Assembly (NCBI RefSeq): GCF_900100875.1
Contig: NZ_FNKQ01000001.1
Span: forward strand, 682,001 to 746,000
Direction: 5' to 3'
DNA from: Halopelagius longus
Lineage (GTDB): Archaea; Halobacteriota; Halobacteria; Halobacteriales; Haloferacaceae
Length of the DNA stretch: 64,000 bases
This document shows, piece by piece, positions 58,573-61,491 of the stretch; position 1 is the stretch's first letter, and every line of letters begins with the position of its first letter. The position numbers were made by a program, and so were the translations under genes. The notes beneath the pieces were generated by a model that was given only the letters and a program-made list of their open reading frames with translations, was not told the DNA's origin and searched no databases.

Positions 58573-59838
58573 TTACCGCTCGTTCACGGAGAGGACTTTC
58601 CCCGCCGCGATGGTCTGTCCCATGTCGCGGATGGCGAAGGAGCCGAGTTCCGCTATCTCCGAGGAGGGTTCGACGACCAGCGGTTTCTGCGGGCGGAGCG
58701 TCACCACCGCGGCGTCGCCCGCCTTGACGAAGTCGGGGTTCTCCTCGGCGACTTCGCCGGATTTGGGGTCGAGTTTCTTGTCGAGCGATTCGAAGGTGCA
58801 GGCCACCTGCGCGGTGTGCGCGTGGATGACCGGCGTGTACCCGGCCGTGATGACCGAGGGGTGCTGCATGACGACGATTTGGGCTTGGAACGTCTCGGCT
58901 ACCGTCGGCGGTTCCTCCGCCGGGCCGGCCACGTCGCCGCGCCGGATGTCGTTCTTCCCGATGCCGCGCACGTTGAAGCCGACGTTGTCGCCGGGGCCGG
59001 CCTCCTCGACTTCCTCGTGGTGCATCTCCACCGTCTTCACCTCGCCGGAGACGTCCGAGGGTTGAAACGAGACGCTGTCGCCCGTCCGGAGCATCCCCGT
59101 CTCGACGCGTCCGACGGGAACCGTCCCGATGCCGGAGATGGTGTAGACGTCCTGAATCGGCAGTCGAAGCGGCGCGTCCGTCGGCGGCGACGGTTCCGGG
59201 AGGCCGTTCAGCGATTCGAGGATGGTCGGCCCGTCGAACCACGAGGTGTTCTCGGACTTCTCGGCGACGTTGTCGCCCTCGAACGCCGAGATGGGGATGA
59301 AACTCGCGTCGTCGGTGCCGAAGCGAACCTGTTCGAGGAGCGTCCGAACCTCCTCTTTGACCTCCTCGTACGCGTCTTCGCTGTAGTCGACGACGTCCAT
59401 CTTGTTGACGGCGACGATGAGCGTCTCGATGCCCAGCGTCCGGGCGAGGAAGACGTGTTCGCGCGTCTGCGGCGCGACGCCGTCGTCGGCGGCGACGACG
59501 AGGACGGCGTGGTCCGCCTGCGACGCGCCCGTGATCATGTTCTTCACGAAGTCGCGGTGGCCGGGCGTGTCCACGATGGTGAAGTAGTACTTCTCCGTGT
59601 CGAACCGCTGGTGGGCGATGTCGATGGTGACGCCGCGTTCTCGCTCTTCGGCGAGGTTGTCCATCACGTACGCGAACTCGAAACCCGACTTACCCTTCGA
59701 CTCCGCCTCGTCGCGGTACTGCTCGATGATGTGTTCAGGGACGCTCCCCGTCTCGAACAGGAGTCGGCCCACGAGCGTGGACTTCCCGTGGTCGACGTGT
59801 CCGATGATGGCGAGGTTCTGGTGCGGTTTGTCGCTCAT
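58573..59838 (-). CDS. tef1a: translation elongation factor EF-1alpha
   Basis: 421 residues, carries aminoacyl-tRNA to the ribosome as a GTP complex. G1 GHVDHGKS near 13, G2 ERGVTID near 64, G3 VDTPGHRDF near 87, G4 [10 protein letters not shown] near 143, G5 PISAFEG near 182; domains 2 and 3 are complete ([33 protein letters not shown]). It stands alone, not beside the usual rpsL-rpsG-fusA or rpsJ genes, and has small departures from the familiar haloarchaeal sequence (DTPGH where DCPGH is common). It could be the only copy or a paralogue. Confidence 0.9.
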
Positions 59839-59935
59839 AGTGGGAGGGCCGGGTGTGGCCTTAGGACGAAGTACGTCGTCACTGGAGAAAACGGTTTCTC
59901 GGGGAGAGCGGCCGGGGCGACTACGGTCCGGCGTT

Positions 59936-60043
59936 TCAGAACGATTCGGAGCGCATCGTGCGCTCCATCTCGGCGAACGTCGCCGTGCGGCGGACTTGCG
60001 AGTCGGTTCGCTCCGCTTCCTCGGAGGTACTTACTACAATCAT
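59936..60043 (-). CDS. 35-residue leaderless small protein ahead of EF-1alpha
   Basis: ATG 60043 to TGA 59936, too short for standard calling. It encodes [16 protein letters not shown] and then [20 protein letters not shown] strong TATA box at 60066-60074 is centred about 27 bases before the ATG, the hallmark of a leaderless haloarchaeal mRNA. The EF-1alpha gene follows after 97 bases and has no better promoter of its own, so the small gene seems to be first on its transcript. Function unknown. Confidence 0.55.
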
Positions 60044-60065
60044 ACGTACTAATCCGGCTTCGACG

Positions 60066-60074
60066 ATAATAAAT
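60066..60074 (-). promoter_or_regulatory. TATA box upstream of the small gene and EF-1alpha
   Basis: Minus-strand ATTTATTAT is the strongest TATA match in this interval. It would start transcription at about 60043, exactly the small gene's ATG, and probably also serves the EF-1alpha gene. Confidence 0.55.
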
Positions 60075-60144
60075 CTACTCGCGACGACCGTGGCGCGTAT
60101 CGGAACGATTCGACTCCTCGCTAAAAACGGTTACTGCGGGGTCG

Positions 60145-61491
60145 TTACGTCTCGGCGCGGGGGAAGTTACGAATCGTCTCCTCCCGGAAGGCGTCCTCGT
60201 CGAACTCGTAGTCGCCGTCGAAGAAGTCCATCAACTGCTTCGTGTCGCGCATGGCGTTTTTCACGCAGGTGGACGCGCCCGGCGAGGGCGTGATGTTGAA
60301 GATGATATCGTCGCCGGTAATCTTGGCTTCGCCCATATCGAGCGTCTTGGCCTTCGTATCGACTATCTGCGGTCGGACGCCGCCGTACCCCTTCGCTCGC
60401 TCGATGTCGTCCAGTTCGATGCTCGGAACCACCTTCTGGACGTGCGGCAGGAACGCCCGCGGCCCCACCTCGGGGAGGTCGTACAGGAGGTTTCTGACGA
60501 CGTACGGGAACAGCACCCGGTCCGAGAGGATGTTGGCGTAACTCAGGAACGAGTCGAGGCTCAGACCGAACACGTCGAGGAAGTCGCCCACGGTGGAGAA
60601 CCGGCCCCGTTCGAGCGTCGGCACCACCTTCGCCGTCGGCCCGAACCGGGTGACGTTGGCGTCGTGGACGTCGGCGTCGCCGTGGACCGCCGCGAACGGC
60701 AGTTTCTTCATCTGGAGCGTGTACACCTTGCCGTTCAGGTACTCGCCCTCCGCGAGGAAGAAGCTCCCAGCGACCGGGAGCAGGGACTTGTGCTCGCCGT
60801 AGCCCATCCGCTTTGCTATCTGGAGGCTGTGTGACCCCGCCGCGACGACGGTGACGTCGGCCTCGAAGTCTCGCGCGTCGGTTTCGACGGTGAACCCCTC
60901 GCGGTTCTTCTCGATGTTCTGGACCTCCGTTCCGGTGAAGACGTCGACGCCGTCTTCCTCCGCGGCGTTCTCCACGAACGACCTCGCCGTCTTCCCGTAG
61001 TCGACGACGTACCCGTCGGGCGTCTGCAGGGCGAGCATCTCCGTGTTCGGGTCCCGGCCCTCGACGACTTTCGGCTCTATTTCGGCGATCTCCTCCCTGC
61101 CGATGGCGCTGAGTTTCGGGAACAGGTCGCCGAACCCCTCGTCGTCGTATCTCCGCCGGAGTTTCGGCACCTCGTCGTCGCCGACGGCGAGCACCATCTT
61201 GCTCCGCTTGCTGTGCATCTCGCGGTCGGGGTCTTCGTTCTCCAGATACCCCGCCAGCATCTCCGCGCCTTCCTTGACCTCCTCGGCCTTCCGTAAGGTG
61301 TAGTTCGTCTCGATGTCCCCGAAGTGCAGCGTTTGGGAGTTGTTCGTGTTGTGCGAGTTTATCGCCGCTATCTCGTCTTCCTTCTCGAGTAGCGCGACTC
61401 GCTCGATATCGGTGAACTTCGAGACCGTATAGAGCAACGACGCTCCGCTTATTCCTCCGCCGACGATAACGAGGTCGTATTCGTCTATCAT
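60145..61491 (-). CDS. mqo: FAD-dependent oxidoreductase, malate:quinone oxidoreductase-like
   Basis: 448 residues. FAD dinucleotide motif VIVGGGISGASLLY near 9. SHNTNNSQTLHFGDIETNY near 46-64 and the C-terminal GVRPQIVDTKAKTLDMG near 384 match the Mqo family, which oxidises malate to oxaloacetate and passes electrons to quinone at the membrane. The family also contains L-2-hydroxyglutarate oxidases, so the substrate could differ. ATG start at 61491. It shares the pattern of a peripheral membrane enzyme. Confidence 0.78.
   Translation of the reverse strand: MIDEYDLVIVGGGISGASLLYTVSKFTDIERVALLEKEDEIAAINSHNTNNSQTLHFGDIETNYTLRKAEEVKEGAEMLAGYLENEDPDREMHSKRSKMVLAVGDDEVPKLRRRYDDEGFGDLFPKLSAIGREEIAEIEPKVVEGRDPNTEMLALQTPDGYVVDYGKTARSFVENAAEEDGVDVFTGTEVQNIEKNREGFTVETDARDFEADVTVVAAGSHSLQIAKRMGYGEHKSLLPVAGSFFLAEGEYLNGKVYTLQMKKLPFAAVHGDADVHDANVTRFGPTAKVVPTLERGRFSTVGDFLDVFGLSLDSFLSYANILSDRVLFPYVVRNLLYDLPEVGPRAFLPHVQKVVPSIELDDIERAKGYGGVRPQIVDTKAKTLDMGEAKITGDDIIFNITPSPGASTCVKNAMRDTKQLMDFFDGDYEFDEDAFREETIRNFPRAET

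Follow-up and report, generated by a model that had tools for sequence, protein, structure and literature searches.

A putative leaderless microprotein gene of haloarchaea that looks like a neighbour of a second EF-1alpha gene

Is a tiny open reading frame directly upstream of an elongation factor gene part of the control of that gene, or is it a gene of its own? This question is raised by a 35-codon frame in Halopelagius longus. The window analysed here is a stretch of 64,000 nt from contig NZ_FNKQ01000001.1 (assembly GCF_900100875.1, positions 682,001 to 746,000). On its minus strand the small frame runs from an ATG at 60043 to a stop codon at 59938-59936, and 97 nt after the stop is the ATG (59838) of an EF-1alpha gene (Table 1). 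The gene upstream of the frame on the same strand (60145-61491) encodes a malate:quinone or L-2-hydroxyglutarate oxidase-like protein. A preliminary description of this locus regarded the frame as a leaderless gene driven by the EF-1alpha promoter, and suggested that the peptide or its translation may control EF-1alpha. Judged from the sequences compared here, the frame is a genuine gene for a tiny protein that had no name so far and that a group of haloarchaea has kept. It looks like a neighbour of the EF-1alpha gene, not a built-in control switch.

Table 1. Features of the small gene and of the EF-1alpha gene next to it (window coordinates)
Feature	Position	Strand	Evidence or remark
Predicted microprotein gene, 35 codons and stop	59936..60043	(-)	ORF, 38-genome family, alignment, codon-level constraint
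TATA box of small gene, TTTATTA	60067..60073	(-)	First T 30 nt before ATG
Codons of C-terminal block (14), mostly predicted helical	59951..59992	(-)	Conservation in 38 sequences, AlphaFold
Proposed promoter box for tuf2 itself, AACCGTTTT	59888..59896	(-)	Recurrence before tuf2 in most carrier genera
Hairpin GGCC-ACACCC-GGCC in short tuf2 5'UTR	59847..59860	(-)	Same-place hairpins in related tuf2, shuffle test
tuf2, second EF-1alpha paralog	58573..59838	(-)	NCBIfam TIGR00483 (E 8e-206); second copy in genome; clade support 0.96

The EF-1alpha gene of the window is the second of two copies and is called tuf2 here. The canonical tuf is on another contig (G000:C3:439656-440918), is 85% identical, and has no such small frame upstream. 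The spacing given in the preliminary description is correct, and its "EF-1alpha" is now clarified as the second paralog, not the canonical copy. In a protein tree, the tuf2 copies of the genera carrying the small gene group together with a support of 0.96.

In an initial alignment of seven related tuf2 loci, RRTATF and two methionines of the small peptide are invariant. A search of 170 genomes of the same family and a sample of 392 genomes from the order identified one clear copy of the small gene in each of 38 genomes belonging to 9 genera (e.g., Haloferax, Halogeometricum, and Halegenticoccus). Among the Haloferax orthologues, that of Haloferax marisrubri is at L115:6001-6105. The reading frame is therefore conserved in related genomes, as the preliminary description had asked to be checked. 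No clear copy was found outside the family in the sampled order. The peptides are 33-37 amino acids long (one has 48), and nearly all of them read M-x-V-V/A ... RRTATFA(D/E)M..xM(R/Q). The microprotein has no match above chance in Pfam, NCBIfam, PHROGs, PDB, or Rfam, and no relatives among plasmid records and viral contigs. Text searches of the literature for its motif and for work on the EF-1alpha 5'UTR found nothing relevant. The family is a defined single-copy microprotein of haloarchaeal genomes that is absent from curated family libraries, and its carriers include a genetically tractable genus, Haloferax. Note that look-alikes with a C-terminal extension in genera g3 and g9 are left out of the member count. 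The g3 frame has 36 amino acids with the motif RRTAxFAEM and an extension ending in GG (L138:5929-6039, L139:5995-6105, and L140:6009-6119). It is divergent from a conserved opposite-strand gene and is a possible distant relative.

Leaderless genes are recognized by a leader of 0-5 nt and by a TATA box that has its centre about 27 nt upstream of the start codon. The small gene has this promoter spacing in all 38 genomes. In every one of them the box begins 27-31 nt upstream of the ATG. The distance is exactly 30 nt in 28, the window included, where it is that expected of a leaderless transcript. The recurrence of frame, ATG, and TATA-to-ATG spacing in 38 genomes is beyond chance. The third positions of codons 2-5 are A or T at a frequency of 0.90, compared with 0.17 in later codons, and such AT-rich positions are as expected if a leaderless start is kept open in a genome rich in GC. 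As far as sequence can tell, the 35-codon leaderless gene of the preliminary description holds up well. Leaderless mRNAs are common in this group; in Haloferax volcanii they make up 72% of the mapped protein-coding transcripts (PMC4983044).

The peptide is variable in the middle and almost invariant in a C-terminal block. For the 14 codons of this block pN/pS is 0.31 (38 sequences), and its R, T, and A residues are invariant across genera while their third bases vary. Such variation inside invariant residues indicates that the peptide itself is under selection, as a protein-coding frame would be. Within genera, pN/pS of the whole gene is 0.50-0.64, only moderately below 1, indicating that the middle of the peptide is loosely constrained. 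The only structure that AlphaFold predicts is a helix at the C-terminus (residues 23-34). The overall mean pLDDT is 68, with 84 at residues 21-30 and 75 at residues 31-35, and nothing is confidently predicted for the N-terminal half. The predicted helix fits a docking peptide.

It is quite likely that these patterns reflect a stand-alone leaderless microprotein gene whose peptide acts in trans via its C-terminal helix. Transcription would start at the ATG or within a few nucleotides of it, producing a leaderless mRNA with an AT-rich 5' end. This mRNA would be mainly monocistronic and the small frame would be translated. The peptide probably acts in trans, with the conserved C-terminal helix RRTATFA[DE]M..AMR expected to dock on a protein or RNA partner. 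The tuf2 gene is judged to be a neighbour outside the microprotein unit. Counted against the stand-alone reading are the presence of tuf2 in every carrier, adjacency to it as the majority state, the moderate whole-gene pN/pS, and the lack of an evident terminator between the small gene and tuf2 in the window. Readthrough from the small gene into tuf2 may occur, and nothing marks it as a conserved function.

In a special case of the stand-alone reading, the peptide would act in trans on EF-1alpha-2 or on the ribosome, as a partner or regulator, and would be retained in the same genomes as tuf2 even where the two genes are apart. Each of the 38 carriers has tuf2 as one of two EF-1alpha genes, and no genome with a single EF-1alpha gene has the small gene at a clear score. 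However, five two-copy genomes are without the small gene. On the tree the co-occurrence comes down to no more than one or two independent pairs, a pattern that common descent is enough to account for. It is unlikely, then, that the C-terminal helix binds EF-1alpha-2 or the ribosome as a partner of the translation machinery. If it does, genomes that have this spare EF-1alpha would retain a dedicated micro-regulator as well, and an action on translation would be directly testable in Haloferax.

The control of EF-1alpha proposed in the preliminary description would work in cis: the small frame would be a leader peptide or uORF on a shared transcript, and its translation would control tuf2 by coupling or arrest. 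The gene order of the majority fits this proposal. The small gene is on the same strand and adjacent to tuf2 in 28 of the 38 genomes (genera g1, g18, g20, g22, g25, and g28), with a gap of 97 to about 424 nt. In the other 10 (five of g10, four of g27, and one of g7), the adjacency is lost and the peptide is still conserved. The distance to tuf2 is 1.3-7.8 kb in the five g10 genomes, where a pyrimidine-rich tract is found right after the stop codon of the small gene, and in the two with genes called (L088 and L089) the next gene after the small one is on the opposite strand. In g27 and g7, tuf2 is 0.2-2.5 Mb off or on another contig. A leader that is always upstream on the same transcript is not what these genomes have. 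Furthermore, where the two genes are adjacent, the spacer between them is conserved neither in length nor in sequence.

tuf2 also appears to have its own start signals. The preliminary description saw no second clear promoter before EF-1alpha, and this part fails. A separate promoter at this place, which it had named as counting against its own reading, is indicated by the sequences. A proposed promoter box for tuf2, separate from that of the small gene, is AACCGTTTT, found 58 nt before the tuf2 ATG. Counterparts exist at -57 to -64 in most carrier genera whether the small gene is adjacent or not (ACGGATWTAC in Haloferax), and the canonical tuf has an analogous box, CGAAATSGTTTTA, at the matching place. 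Exceptions are g25, whose box is about 85 nt upstream with a longer leader, and g20, whose box is weak. Downstream of the box, related tuf2 genes have a hairpin at the same place in the 5'UTR, and its stems differ by genus yet pair, including GGGCG/CGCCC versus GGGCA/TGCCC within Haloferax. Two MAFFT alignments left these stems unaligned and a shuffle test was used instead. Single-sequence ranks are modest, and the signal is strong only in the combined test (Fisher p 7e-7; nine rows, one per genus, g25 left out). With this recurring box and hairpin before tuf2, the idea that the EF-1alpha promoter drives the small gene is unsupported.

Regulatory leader and arrest peptides such as TnaC and SecM are short, are encoded upstream of another gene, and have a conserved C-terminal block. 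The small gene resembles them in all three respects, and its contiguous invariant C-terminal block may be read as what arrest peptides conserve. Unlike them, it is not tied to one downstream gene, has no fixed spacer, and is followed by a separate promoter box. Nor does the peptide have a run of a single amino acid as in attenuators. Control of tuf2 in cis by the small frame is thus quite improbable, and the claim of the preliminary description that the peptide or its translation acts on EF-1alpha is left without support by the ten genomes in which tuf2 is 1.3 kb to 2.5 Mb away. Adjacency to an elongation factor gene does not mean regulation, because tuf2 has a promoter box to itself and in three genera the two genes are no longer side by side.

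On the far side of the small gene, divergent gcvT is the neighbour kept in all 38 carriers, at about 0.13 to 20 kb and at less than 400 bp in about 15 of them. The small gene might belong with the glycine cleavage genes and share or modulate the gcvT promoter region. This is very unlikely, since gcvT is also present in most genomes without the small gene, no diverged relative of it turned up upstream of gcvT in 18 such genomes, and in several genera other genes have moved in between the two. The short size, and the promoter and first codons conserved partly at the nucleotide level, would suit a noncoding RNA whose frame is incidental. This is extremely improbable given that, from genus to genus, third positions vary in the codons of invariant R, T, and A residues.

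A stand-alone microprotein gene has likenesses in Haloferax volcanii. Its micro-proteins are also encoded by very small genes with a basal promoter and a leaderless start (PMC4983044, PMC11241148). The zinc-finger micro-proteins of Haloferax have two C(P)XCG motifs, which are absent from the 24 aligned members of the present family. The uORFs in long 5'UTRs of H. volcanii are another likeness, being small frames with an upstream start site before a gene of normal size (PMC4983044). They are 15-31 amino acids long, shorter than the members of the present family, and none of the entries in Table 2 of that study is for EF-1alpha (PMC4983044). For 7 of the 16 cases listed, a start site of its own is given for the downstream gene too. 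The same study names small genes that immediately precede normal ones as another possibility besides uORFs (PMC4983044). Unlike these uORFs, the small gene is conserved across genera and persists in genomes that have the downstream gene at another place.

A few other features of haloarchaeal EF-1alpha genes are found. Both copies have a small hairpin in a 5'UTR of 25-30 nt (the window, canonical tuf, L002, and L036), and in canonical tuf the stems are nearly invariant (GCGC-CTTA-GCGC). Two other second copies, L048 (G011:C1:1405960-1407219) and L050 (G051:C5:29572-30831), are about 81% identical to the EF-1alpha of the window and are outside the tuf2 clade. More than one duplication or exchange of EF-1alpha therefore seems to have taken place among haloarchaea. 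At G014:C45:93166-94329, the EF-1alpha match is in two pieces within one open frame and is missing about residues 91-125, which is either an internal deletion or an assembly error.
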